64,000 nucleotides of DNA. Origin: Pleurocapsa minor HA4230-MV1 (lineage in GTDB: Bacteria > Cyanobacteriota > Cyanobacteriia > Cyanobacteriales > Xenococcaceae). The stretch spans positions 186,001 to 250,000 of the forward strand of contig JAHHHZ010000020.1 in the NCBI GenBank assembly GCA_019359095.1, read 5' to 3'. Shown here piece after piece: positions 8,785-13,354 of this stretch. The first letter of the stretch is position 1. Every line of letters starts with the position of its first letter. A model generated the notes under the pieces. The model worked only from the letters and a program-made list of their open reading frames with translations. It did not search any database and was not told the origin of the DNA. The position numbers and the translations under genes were made by a program.

Positions 8785-10977
8785 TTAATTTATATTATTA
8801 ATAGCTAATCCCAAAATTGGAGCTTTACACAATCTTAATTGATTAAGAGCTTCAGTTATTTCATCAGTTTGTATTCTACCTACCTCGGTAACTAAGACAA
8901 TTCCATCTATTTGACCAGCCAGTAAATTTACGTCAGCAAATCCAACTATAGCGCAAAGATCGTAGATAACTATGTCAAAACTATTTCTTAATTCTTCAAT
9001 TAAAATATGCATTTTTGCTGATGCTAATAAGTGACTACAGTCCTGTTTAATAAAAGATGAATTTTTGGGTAATTTTGTATTTGTAATTGTTTCATCTTTT
9101 AAACCAGAAGTGATAAAAGATAAATTACTTTCTAAAAGCAATTGTTTAGTATTAATTTGCTCTAAACTTAAATTATAATCATTCTGATTTAAGATATCTA
9201 TTAAACCTATTTCTGATTCTAAATCCAAATATTTAGTTAAACGATCATTACTACGTAGATCTGTATCAACCAGCAAAGTCTTTTTACCCATTGAAGCACA
9301 TGCTCTAGCAAGATTTAAGGCAACAGTAGATTTTCCCTCTCCAGAAATCGCCGAAGTAATTACCAGAGACTTAATATTAATGTTGGAATCTAAATGCCCT
9401 GAATTAAAATTTAAAAGACCTAAATTAGCAGCAAATGAACGAAATGCTTCCATTGATAAAGAAGCTAACTCTGGAAGAGATCGTTGTTTGAGCGAATGTG
9501 ATTCTTGTGAAGATAATTGTCTTAATTCTTGTTTAATAAATGCTAATGTCTTATTTTTTGGTATATGAGGAATTGTACCCAAAATAGGTAAGTTAGTTAT
9601 TTCTTCAACCTTAGCTGAAGTATAAATAATATTTTGATATTTATCTAAAATTAAAGCTGTTCCTACACCTAACAATAATCCCAAACTTGAACCTAGCAAC
9701 AAGTAGTTAATCATACCAAAATTTTTAGTTGCTGGTTCTTCTGCTGGAGTTAAAAGTTGCCATGGTGCTTCTTGTTGAGCAGCTTCAATTGAAAGGGCAT
9801 CTTTTTGCAGCTCAAATTCGTTGAGTTTATTATTAGCTAAAGCTAGATTTTGTAAAAGGTTATTGTAATCACTAGAAACTGATGACCAACCTTCTAATTG
9901 TAATTTTAAATTATTTGTTCCTTTAACTATGTTTTGTTGGCGATTTTCTGATATATTAATTTCTTTATTTAACTGTTGGCGAATCTCTTCTCCTACTTCT
10001 CTAATTAAAAAAATAATTTGTTGCTTTTCTTGTTTTAAAGTTTGTATTTCTATACTATTATTTGAAAAAATCGCAGACTTACGAGCAATTTCAAGCTCTA
10101 TTTGTCGAGATTTATTGAGTAATTCAAGATACTGAGGAGTAGCAAGCTTAATCGCCGTCTCTGATTTTTCTGGCTTTGTTTTTAGTTCCCGATCCAGATT
10201 TTTAGCCATCAACCTAAGTTCAGCGATCCTGATATTAATATCCTCTGCTTCTTGATTTAATTTATTAGAACGGGTTGTTAGAGGTTCTAAAGAAATATCT
10301 GGCTTAATAAAATTATGTTTGCTTCTTAATGTTTTAATTTGTTCTTCTATATTGTTAACTTCTAAGTCAGCTTTTAGTATTTGTTGGTCTAAAAAACTAA
10401 TACCTCGTTTAACTCCAGATAAGCGTTTTTCTGCACTATAGTCTATGTATACCTTAATTAAAACATCCACAACACTAGCAACTTTTTGTTTATCTACATT
10501 TTCATATGTTACTAGCAGAACATCTTGAGCTTCTTGATTTTCTTGACTATCAGTGATTATGTTAATCGTTAAGCCATCATATAACTCTTGATAACTCATG
10601 TCGGGATATTTACTTTGAAGTAATTCAACAGCACGCAAAATTAATTTAGGGCTTTTTAAAATTTTAAGTTGAACATCATTCAACTCTACAGAAGTAATTT
10701 CTTCTCTGGTTTCTCTAGACTCTTCATTAGTAGAAGTAACTTTAGTTTCAATGTTTAATGGCTCCAATAGTTCAAAACTGGCAAAATAAACTGGAGGGGT
10801 AATTAACATTTTTATAAAGGCAAAAGAGGTCATTCCTAAAGTAAAACATATAATTAGAAAAATTTTGCGCCAAATAATATTTTTTATTTCACGTAAATTT
10901 AAGCCTCCTTCAGAGTTTTCAGCCGTAGAATAATTATTTAAAGGATAAAAATTTTGCGTCTCTAGATTATGGTTCAT
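8785..10977 (-). CDS. Wzc-like polysaccharide co-polymerase with BY-kinase domain
   Basis: This 730-residue inner-membrane protein controls chain length and export of EPS. A Wzz region has transmembrane helix 1 near residues 36-56. A long periplasmic coiled coil (about 190-400) follows, then helix 2 near 420-441, then a cytoplasmic CpsD-type ATPase. Walker A is ISGEGKSTVALNLARA (about 542-555), Walker A' is LLVDTDLRSND, and Walker B is FDIVIYDL. The protein stops soon after the P-loop fold (GLAINNIN) and lacks the tyrosine-rich tail that bacterial BY-kinases autophosphorylate. The D-x-P usually seen after Walker B is also replaced. It heads the leftward operon. Confidence 0.93.
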   Translation of the reverse strand: MNHNLETQNFYPLNNYSTAENSEGGLNLREIKNIIWRKIFLIICFTLGMTSFAFIKMLITPPVYFASFELLEPLNIETKVTSTNEESRETREEITSVELNDVQLKILKSPKLILRAVELLQSKYPDMSYQELYDGLTINIITDSQENQEAQDVLLVTYENVDKQKVASVVDVLIKVYIDYSAEKRLSGVKRGISFLDQQILKADLEVNNIEEQIKTLRSKHNFIKPDISLEPLTTRSNKLNQEAEDINIRIAELRLMAKNLDRELKTKPEKSETAIKLATPQYLELLNKSRQIELEIARKSAIFSNNSIEIQTLKQEKQQIIFLIREVGEEIRQQLNKEINISENRQQNIVKGTNNLKLQLEGWSSVSSDYNNLLQNLALANNKLNEFELQKDALSIEAAQQEAPWQLLTPAEEPATKNFGMINYLLLGSSLGLLLGVGTALILDKYQNIIYTSAKVEEITNLPILGTIPHIPKNKTLAFIKQELRQLSSQESHSLKQRSLPELASLSMEAFRSFAANLGLLNFNSGHLDSNINIKSLVITSAISGEGKSTVALNLARACASMGKKTLLVDTDLRSNDRLTKYLDLESEIGLIDILNQNDYNLSLEQINTKQLLLESNLSFITSGLKDETITNTKLPKNSSFIKQDCSHLLASAKMHILIEELRNSFDIVIYDLCAIVGFADVNLLAGQIDGIVLVTEVGRIQTDEITEALNQLRLCKAPILGLAINNIN

Positions 10978-11622: not shown

Positions 11623-12012
11623 ATGCCTAATAAAAGAAGTAAAAGAGGAAAAACTCAAATTTATAATTGTCCTTTTTGTCAGCAAAGATTATGGAGGTTA
11701 GGAACTTCAAAATATTACATTTTTTATCAAAATGACATTGAAATTAAGAAAAATCTATGTATTTCTGCTAAAAATGCTAAGTTGCTAGCTAATCAAAACT
11801 CTACATACCTAGATACAAAAAAATGGATAGAAGCTTTTTGTTGTCAAAAACATGGATCACTTTGGCTATTAATTTCACTTCAAGAAAAAGGTTGCAATTA
11901 TAGGTTGGCTAAGGAAAAAGATTGGTTACAGACGAATAAAACCTCTGACCCTAGAAGATCTAACCCTTCCGTTAGCGAATTTACTTTGAGAATGAGCCGT
12001 GCGCTTTTTTAA
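11623..12012 (+). CDS. Small conserved Cys-rich protein, putative zinc ribbon
   Basis: This 129-residue protein of unknown function has no signal peptide. It contains a CPFCQQRLWRLG knuckle (C16, C19) and a second cluster, FCCQKHGSLWLLIS, which together could bind one zinc. The C-terminal half ends with NPSVSEFTLRMSR. From memory this resembles a cyanobacterial family of uncharacterised proteins found near polysaccharide genes, but I cannot confirm it. It is the first gene of the rightward EPS arm, 88 bp before the GT26 gene. The zinc-binding role is inference from the paired cysteines. Confidence 0.7.
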   Translation: MPNKRSKRGKTQIYNCPFCQQRLWRLGTSKYYIFYQNDIEIKKNLCISAKNAKLLANQNSTYLDTKKWIEAFCCQKHGSLWLLISLQEKGCNYRLAKEKDWLQTNKTSDPRRSNPSVSEFTLRMSRALF

Positions 12013-12100: not shown

Positions 12101-13354
12101 ATGATACCAAAAAAAGAACTACTTAATGTTCCTGTTACTTGTCTGCCTTTGGATGAGCAAATCATGTTGATGCTACGCTGGGCGAAAATGAGAACGAGCA
12201 AAGTTGTCTGTTTGGCCAACGTTCATATGCTAATGGAGGCTTACTGGCATCCAGCCTTTAAAACGATTTTACAGAAAGCAGATTTGGTTACTCCTGACGG
12301 CAAGCCTTTAGTTTTGATGCTACGTCGATTGGGAATACATCACCAAAACCAGGTATCGGGAATGGATGTCTTTCTTAATTTGTGCAACCTAGCTGAAAGT
12401 ACGGGGGTTGGAATATATTTTTTAGGCTCTACGAACGAAATATTAGCAAAGATTAAGCAAAAACTAAACCGTGAATACCCAATTTTAAAAATTGCTGGGA
12501 TGAAAGCAATTCCTCATCTTTCTATTGAAGAAATTTATGCTAATCAAGATACTGAATTAATAGAAGATATCAATAAAAGTAAAGCTGGCATAGTATTTGT
12601 TTGTTTGGGATGTCCGAAACAGGAAATCTGGATGTCTCAATATCAGGGTTTGATTAATGGGGTGATGATTGGAGTTGGGGCTGTTTTTTCAATGTACGTA
12701 GGAATTAATCCCAGAGCGCCTCAATGGATTCAACAAGCAGGTTTAGAATGGCTATATCGCTTATTACAAGAGCCACGGCGTCTCTGGCGTCGTTATGGTT
12801 CAACGATTCCACCTTTTCTATATTTAGCTATCAAACAATTATTGACTCTCTATCAAGAAAAATTAAAACTAGAGGATCAAAACTCAGTAGATGGTCATTC
12901 AATGTTTAATATTGATGAGCTAGATACTTCACCTAAAAGAATAGGTGACATTTTAGTTAGACAAGGTTTAATAACTACAGATATCTTAAATAAAGTAATA
13001 CAAGAACAAGAACAAGCTTATGAGTTAAAAATAGGCGAGATTTTGATTAAGAATAATTTAATTTCTTTACCTCAATTGAAATATTATTTAAGAAATCAAA
13101 ATATTAAACTTGGTGAAATTTTAATTGAGCAAAAATTACTTAAAAACTCAAAATTAAAACAAATTTTACTACTTCAAAAAACTATAATGTCTGGTAAAAA
13201 ATTAGGTGAAATTTTAATTGAGCTAAATATATTGTCGGATAAACAAATAGAAATGGCTATTCTTGAGCAGTATTGGCGACGTAAAGGACTATGGTTAAAT
13301 CAACAGACACCTGAAGAGAGTTCAGATTCCCAAAAAATTTATGTTCAGCTTTAG
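12101..13354 (+). CDS. WecG/TagA/CpsF (GT26) glycosyltransferase fused to four MshEN-like motifs
   Basis: Residues 1-245 are a GT26 transferase of the kind that adds the second sugar to an undecaprenyl-linked primer. The family blocks are visible: VCLANVHMLMEAY, ADLVTPDGKPLV, a GMDVF block, and VCLGCPKQEIWM followed by GVGAVFSMYVG. Residues 280-390 are four 24-residue units beginning RIGDIL, KIGEIL, KLGEIL and KLGEIL, each ending near an LxxQ or IxxQ, with spacers of 6, 2 and 7 residues. This is the pattern of the MshEN c-di-GMP-binding domain. Only unit 1 keeps the leading arginine. The GT alone would be about 250 residues, so the tail is a true addition. A GCAAGG ribosome site precedes the ATG. 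Confidence 0.92.
   Translation: MIPKKELLNVPVTCLPLDEQIMLMLRWAKMRTSKVVCLANVHMLMEAYWHPAFKTILQKADLVTPDGKPLVLMLRRLGIHHQNQVSGMDVFLNLCNLAESTGVGIYFLGSTNEILAKIKQKLNREYPILKIAGMKAIPHLSIEEIYANQDTELIEDINKSKAGIVFVCLGCPKQEIWMSQYQGLINGVMIGVGAVFSMYVGINPRAPQWIQQAGLEWLYRLLQEPRRLWRRYGSTIPPFLYLAIKQLLTLYQEKLKLEDQNSVDGHSMFNIDELDTSPKRIGDILVRQGLITTDILNKVIQEQEQAYELKIGEILIKNNLISLPQLKYYLRNQNIKLGEILIEQKLLKNSKLKQILLLQKTIMSGKKLGEILIELNILSDKQIEMAILEQYWRRKGLWLNQQTPEESSDSQKIYVQL

Follow-up and report, generated by a model that had tools for sequence, protein, structure and literature searches.

A candidate c-di-GMP receptor tail of two predicted tandem MshEN domains on a GT26 glycosyltransferase of Pleurocapsa minor

The window analysed here is a stretch of 64,000 nucleotides from Pleurocapsa minor HA4230-MV1 (assembly GCA_019359095.1, contig JAHHHZ010000020.1, positions 186,001 to 250,000 of the forward strand), to which all coordinates below refer unless another locus is named. 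It encodes a GT26 glycosyltransferase with a C-terminal tail of four motif units that resemble those of MshEN, the domain through which the ATPase MshE binds cyclic di-GMP (c-di-GMP), and the gene lies in a cluster suggestive of exopolysaccharide (EPS) production. The features of the locus are as follows.

12101-13354, + strand: GT26 (WecG/TagA/CpsF) glycosyltransferase with C-terminal tandem MshEN tail, 417 residues (translation and profiles)
12278-12796, + strand: region matched by the GT26 profile, residues 60-232 (D66 and R227 aligned with the catalytic D65 and R221 of TagA)
12773-12880, + strand: long helix, residues 225-260, where TagA has its C-terminal appendage (AlphaFold2 model; PMC6493773)
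12881-12937, + strand: variable linker, residues 261-279 (model confidence score, pLDDT, below 50 at 261-269)
12938-13099, + strand: predicted MshEN domain 1 (units 1 and 2), main candidate c-di-GMP site (conservation, fold superposition)
13106-13270, + strand: predicted MshEN domain 2 (units 3 and 4), second candidate site (conservation, fold superposition)
12938-13009, + strand: MshEN motif unit 1, residues 280-303 (pattern, profile, conservation)
13028-13099, + strand: MshEN motif unit 2, residues 310-333 (pattern, profile, conservation)
13106-13177, + strand: MshEN motif unit 3, residues 336-359 (pattern, conservation)
13199-13270, + strand: MshEN motif unit 4, residues 367-390 (pattern, conservation)
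13265-13297, + strand: C-terminal signature EQYWRRKGLWL, residues 389-399 (sequence comparison)
8785-10977, - strand: Wzc-like chain-length/export kinase, divergent neighbour (Wzz and AAA_31)

The membership of the enzyme in GT26 is evident from profile searches of the protein, which match PF03808 at residues 60-232 (E 1.9e-59) and TIGR00696 (1.6e-51), and in a Pfam scan GT26 is the sole glycosyltransferase family matched, with no match to GT2. Asp66 and Arg227, which by manual counting on the TagA alignment are equivalent to the catalytic Asp65 and the appendage Arg221 of TagA, are invariant in 31/31 aligned GT26 proteins with a tail; the alignment consists of 24 window-type proteins, the window protein included, and seven with a diverged tail. 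The sugar-contacting Thr37 of TagA is replaced by Leu38, which is invariant in 9/9 window-type proteins, and the donor may therefore not be N-acetylmannosamine (ManNAc). In the alignment and the AlphaFold2 model the GT26 part is followed by an appendage-like helix, a variable and poorly ordered linker and then the tail, the mean entropy being 2.51 bits in the linker region (residues 250-279) versus 0.97 bits for the glycosyltransferase domain.

A strict 24-residue pattern has exactly four matches in the protein, starting at residues 280, 310, 336 and 367, and 0/20,000 shuffles of residues 253-417 yield any match. The spacers measure 6 residues within the first pair and 7 within the second, in line with the roughly 5 that separate the two motifs of an MshEN domain, with 2 residues between the pairs. 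The ligand-contact positions 1, 2, 3, 17, 21 and 24 of each motif were taken from MshE as described in section 4 of PMC5013675, and every unit has six of six corresponding residues, namely Arg, Lys or Leu at position 1, hydrophobic residues at 2, 17 and 21, Gly3 and Gln24, with Ile in place of Leu at several of them. The turn glycine at position 10 is found in unit 1 only, units 2-4 having Asn, Lys and Asn, respectively, and the same section presents this glycine of MshE as structural and not in contact with the ligand. A first-pass annotation, made from the letters alone, had described four units of exactly 24 residues at 280-390, spacers of 6, 2 and 7 and an arginine in unit 1 only; the pattern search recovers all of this, units 2-4 beginning with lysine, while of the interval 12938-13273 given there the start is correct and the end lies one codon beyond the last unit, at 13270.

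The NCBIfam model NF053729 (c-di-GMP_motif), titled 'cyclic di-GMP-binding domain-containing protein, MshE-related', matches two stretches of the tail with 70.3 bits (cut-off 38, E 8e-20), and the best PDB sequence matches of the tail are PilF, PilB and MshE. The Pfam profile PF05157, named 'MshEN', has no match in the window protein at E<=10. As a control three pilus-type ATPases were scanned, of which L086 and L087 have clear motifs and L014 has none by the pattern used; PF05157 begins at residues 140 and 142 of L086 and L087, where the last motif glutamine is at 139 and 140, respectively. The profile therefore excludes the c-di-GMP motif and models the C-terminal subdomain, which renders it uninformative as a test for MshEN, and the window tail shows no sign of such an MshEN_C subdomain. 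Made with PF05157, the profile check that the first-pass annotation offered as a refutation would have been misdirected. The isolated N-terminal subdomain of the Vibrio cholerae protein (residues 1-62) has been reported to bind c-di-GMP at 0.35 µM, slightly better than MshEN 1-145 (PMC5013675, section 12). The Pfam profile misses receptors consisting of the N-terminal subdomain only, and such effectors are hence probably undercounted where PF05157 is used. A Pfam match to DUF4388 (21.8 bits) is below its cut-off of 25 and was not adopted.

Since fold searches with the full model were filled by the glycosyltransferase domain and did not probe the tail, the tail was modelled by itself, giving a four-helix-bundle fold with a pLDDT of 94.9. 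The model of units 1-2 superposes on c-di-GMP-bound MshE with 1.6 Å over 60 residues and that of units 3-4 on c-di-GMP-bound PilF GSPII-B with 1.8 Å over 59 residues, and the six best fold alignments of the tail span units 1+2 or 3+4. In the predicted structure the tail is accordingly two tandem MshEN domains rather than four loose units. A pairing of units 2 and 3 was considered and rejected: their spacer is 2 residues in 24/24 window-type proteins, the fold alignments cover the other two pairs, and units 3 and 4 tend to fail jointly, as described below. The MshEN type of the tail, proposed in the first pass together with a structure prediction as a check, is therefore upheld by NF053729, the PDB sequence matches and the superpositions on MshE and PilF GSPII-B, but the four units described there are predicted to form two domains.

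Conservation of the tail is strongest where the ligand would be contacted. Among the 24 window-type proteins the mean entropy is 0.59 bits at the contact positions, 1.24 bits at core positions and 1.80 bits elsewhere. Gly3 is kept in 24/24, 24/24, 23/24 and 22/24 of these proteins in units 1-4, respectively, and Gln24 in 24/24, 24/24, 21/24 and 20/24. In pair 1 the six contact positions of either unit are intact in 24/24 proteins; in pair 2 some unit falls short in 5/24, and units 3 and 4 do so jointly in three of those (Fisher p 0.008, which is a guide only as the rows are related). For the tail, the ratio of nonsynonymous to synonymous substitution rates (dN/dS) lies between 0.07 and 0.23 in 5/6 pairs, dS being saturated in the sixth. 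In the seven diverged rows, where window-numbered columns are unreliable in units 2-4, the contact positions are no more conserved than the core ones; their unit 2 is without Gln at position 24, while 5/7 have Gln at 23, and motif II of PilF GSPII-B is likewise one residue short. A Xenococcus GT26 protein kept apart from the alignment (L064:5989-7101) has three motif units by eye, comprising pair 1 and one unit near the C-terminus.

Position 1 is occupied by lysine in 22/24, 22/24, 19/24 and 16/24 window-type proteins in units 1-4, respectively, which makes lysine the family norm. The earlier suggestion that binding may be weak for want of arginine is not supported and was set aside in view of PilF. 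According to PMC11731258, PilF GSPII-B, with Lys in motif I and Leu in motif II at this position, has a dissociation constant (KD) of 6 nM, about 83-fold tighter than MshEN, and the K167R-E170D double mutant has a KD of 92 nM, similar to K167R, so that a Lys-to-Arg change weakens binding. The same source gives 13.5 and 53 nM for the Lys-bearing D. geothermalis PilB2 and C. thermophilum PilB, and its authors widened the consensus to (R/K/L)LG. By analogy, the lysine is consistent with a high affinity for c-di-GMP and may promote it. Caution is called for by PilF GSPII-A, which when rebuilt to consensus was still non-binding (PMC12002112, section 6).

Ten neighbouring proteins were scanned and seven of them have Pfam matches, these being the Wzc-like protein (Wzz and AAA_31), a hexapeptide acyltransferase, a Gfo/Idh/MocA oxidoreductase, a formyltransferase, an ABC exporter, a GT4 glycosyltransferase and an acyltransferase. 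This polysaccharide-type cluster, together with the GT26 profiles, agrees with the first-pass description of the enzyme as a GT26 transferase in an EPS context. A Wzc-like homologue is present in the flank of 10/17 named relatives, several contigs ending inside the flank, and some of the other flanks have glycosyltransferase, ABC-exporter or DegT homologues. Between the Wzc and GT26 genes an open reading frame of 129 residues (11623-12012) contains cysteine and is without a Pfam match; L050, L051, L058 and L065 have homologues of it (47-68% identity) close to GT26 and Wzc. Of the 20 GGDEF matches in the genome none lies within the window, the nearest on the same contig being at C20:142916, outside it. 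A search by pattern only for an adjoining cyclase gene detected the GGDEF signature in none of the frames of the 17 flanks, nor in any window frame of at least 110 residues.

The same genome encodes a second GT26-MshEN protein that is about 61% identical, and has 15 NF053729 matches at E<=1. A GT26 match reaching the tail (extending to at least residue 320 of the query) occurs in at least 22 of 195 genomes of the order, and among the matches listed these divide into at least eight window-type, at least nine diverged and at least five at about 30% identity. Among the named relatives are Myxosarcina, Pleurocapsa, Hyella, Hydrococcus, Xenococcus, Calothrix, Nostoc and Goleter. When 58 GT26 domains were placed in a quick tree with long outgroup branches, the fusions of the window type fell to the same side of a branch whose support is only 73, and five Nostocales members are nested among Pleurocapsales within them. 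The group at about 30% identity (L129-L133), left off the tree, carries diverged MshEN-like tails by eye and keeps the TPN containing TagA Thr37; judging by its sequences, it may well represent a second, independent GT26-tail fusion. L062, titled Candidatus Gracilibacteria, also contains a GT26-MshEN gene of the window type, which clusters with Hydrococcus in the tree; it is probably a mis-binned cyanobacterial contig. The own genome further contains diverged four-unit MshEN-like proteins with a PIG..Q / RFGE..ETVDFF pattern (L001, L004, L006, L009 and L010), one with pentapeptide repeats and one that, by eye, has a sequence resembling tetratricopeptide repeats (TPR).

Following unit 4, a loose form of the C-terminal signature is found in 23/24 window-type GT26 proteins, with W at the second variable letter in seven, and a related signature is also the terminus of cyanobacterial MshEN modules that are fused to GalE or stand alone. 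The GalE (UDP-glucose 4-epimerase) proteins L092 and L109, with a C-terminal MshEN, match TIGR01179 with E 4e-143 and 6e-138 and NF053729 with 45.7 and 47.7 bits, respectively. The fusions are located at L092:523-1761, L109:1498-2787 and L110:1498-2784 (L110 by eye), with part of one in L084, and end in EQ(A/S)WR(K/Q)QG(L/V)WL; as far as their sequences tell, they might connect c-di-GMP to the supply of sugar nucleotides. The stand-alone proteins have about 70 residues (one bundle) or about 137 residues (two bundles), and NF053729 is above its cut-off in 4/4 scanned. Frames of 70-123 residues occur in L094, L098, L102, L103, L105, L107, L113, L115, L118 and L122-L128, and frames of 133-186 residues in L081-L083, L111, L112, L114, L117, L119 and L121, where L081 is the L112 gene. 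No enzyme domain was seen in the stand-alone modules, which end in a W(R/Q)xxGxW-like signature, in the single-bundle proteins mostly EQYWRxxGFWV as compared with EQYWRRKGLWL in the window.

The sequence, predicted fold, conservation, gene context and the GGDEF-domain genes of the genome are best accommodated by an EPS-cluster GT26 enzyme with a built-in c-di-GMP receptor tail, in which c-di-GMP probably promotes sugar transfer and thereby EPS output. The tail is most likely a receptor gating the EPS glycosyltransferase encoded beside Wzc; c-di-GMP binding is the better-supported step, and it is analogy to NfrB that suggests in which direction and at which point it would act. Each of the two tandem MshEN_N four-helix bundles would hold one c-di-GMP between its two motifs, where Lys or Arg at position 1 would stack on guanine, the backbone of Gly3 would read the Hoogsteen edge, the hydrophobic residues 2, 17 and 21 would pack beneath guanine and Gln24 would hold the phosphate and ribose. 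Domain 1 would serve as the obligatory site and domain 2 as an auxiliary one. According to PMC6493773, TagA is dimeric and inactive in solution and turns into an active monomer once its C-terminal appendage folds on the active site at the membrane. The occupied tail of the window protein might act on the adjoining C-terminal helices of the GT26 part, the element that completes the active site in TagA, and c-di-GMP could shift a dimer-monomer or membrane equilibrium to the active form, promoting sugar transfer to a polyprenyl-linked acceptor and raising EPS output.

Alternatively, c-di-GMP on the tail might govern location and leave the catalytic rate unchanged: the transferase would be recruited to a partner, for example the Wzc/Wzx/Wzy complex or a diguanylate cyclase of the membrane, or kept away from it. 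The variable linker and a signature that lies past the binding motifs and is loosely common to enzyme-free stand-alone modules would fit such a role, as would the reported co-purification of the cyclase DgcJ with the NfrB transferase (PMC8669469), but the searched flanks and window frames offer no GGDEF-signature partner, and we regard this explanation as unlikely. Somewhat less likely again is that the tail has become an MshEN-derived scaffold that has lost its response to c-di-GMP and serves, for instance, in oligomerisation or docking. By eye, the repeats do persist without Q24 in units 2 and 4 in the diverged GT26 tails and in several proteins of the own genome, and absence of binding is established for PilF GSPII-A and XpsE (PMC12002112, section 6; PMC5013675, section 12); in the window-type proteins, however, conservation falls exactly on the ligand contacts, including the polar Q24 and G3, which a scaffold does not obviously require. 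That another guanine cyclic dinucleotide or nucleotide is the physiological ligand seems very improbable. Sequence alone cannot give the identity of a ligand, and V. cholerae MshEN also binds cGAMP, yet about 660-fold more weakly (330 µM against 0.5 µM for c-di-GMP; PMC5013675, section 4), while the guanine-reading Gly3 is kept in both half-sites of both pairs and 20 GGDEF matches occur in the genome.

The occurrence of signature-bearing modules on GalE and as stand-alone proteins suggests a portable c-di-GMP module for cyanobacterial sugar metabolism. More tentatively, and with the balance of our judgement slightly against it, MshEN of one or two bundles without MshEN_C might form a cassette for polysaccharide building, carried by GT26, GalE and free proteins of about 70-140 residues, through which a single messenger would govern the supply of precursors as well as the assembly of chains, each transferase having two high-affinity sites of Lys type that make a graded or cooperative switch.

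Only a few effectors are known through which c-di-GMP acts on cyanobacterial EPS. In Thermosynechococcus, c-di-GMP has been reported to induce cell aggregation (PMC5871770). If the gating model of the GT26 enzyme is true, control would be exerted directly at lipid-linked sugar transfer and not at transcription or pilus ATPases, slime (EPS) production might be switched at this very transferase, and substitutions of G3 and Q24 would allow a clean residue-level test.

Several known systems share parts of this arrangement. MshE of V. cholerae, the MshEN prototype, has the same domain of two 24-residue motifs and a spacer, but is an ATPase with one MshEN, Arg rather than Lys, and glycine 10 in both motifs (PMC5013675, section 4). 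PilF of Thermus thermophilus likewise has tandem MshEN-type domains, GSPII-B and GSPII-C; motif I of GSPII-B has Lys at position 1 followed by LGE, and the predicted window bundles superpose on this domain. PilF differs in being a pilus ATPase and in the C-terminal subdomain of its GSPII domains, which is not seen in the window tail. TagA of Thermoanaerobacter italicus shares the GT26 domain but ends after the appendage (244-residue construct), lacks a sensor tail and has Thr37 in place of Leu38. In BgsA and other c-di-GMP-controlled polysaccharide synthases c-di-GMP acts directly on the glycosyltransferase, as proposed here, whereas the receptor domain is another one and BgsA, going by its abstract, is a synthase and not a transferase of GT26. 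PMC5013675 mentions in general terms that MshEN can be fused to glycosyltransferases; no paper treating a GT26-MshEN fusion was found among those listed by a search that did not extend to the supplementary architecture tables of that paper, where a mention is possible. A close parallel is NfrB of the phage N4 receptor system of E. coli, an exopolysaccharide system in which a glycosyltransferase is likewise followed by a C-terminal MshEN; it is c-di-GMP-controlled with a Kd of 1 µM, and MshEN substitutions lower N4 plating (PMC8669469). NfrB differs in being a GT2 enzyme with processive-glycosyltransferase signatures and two putative transmembrane helices between the domains (PMC8669469), and the NCBIfam NfrB model matches the window tail only weakly (26.7 bits, cut-off 1170). 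MshEN on a glycosyltransferase is thus already known from NfrB, and the window protein differs in the GT26 host and the two predicted tandem domains, in a different gene context; if its proposed control holds true, it would be a second case of MshEN on a glycosyltransferase after NfrB, and in another glycosyltransferase family.
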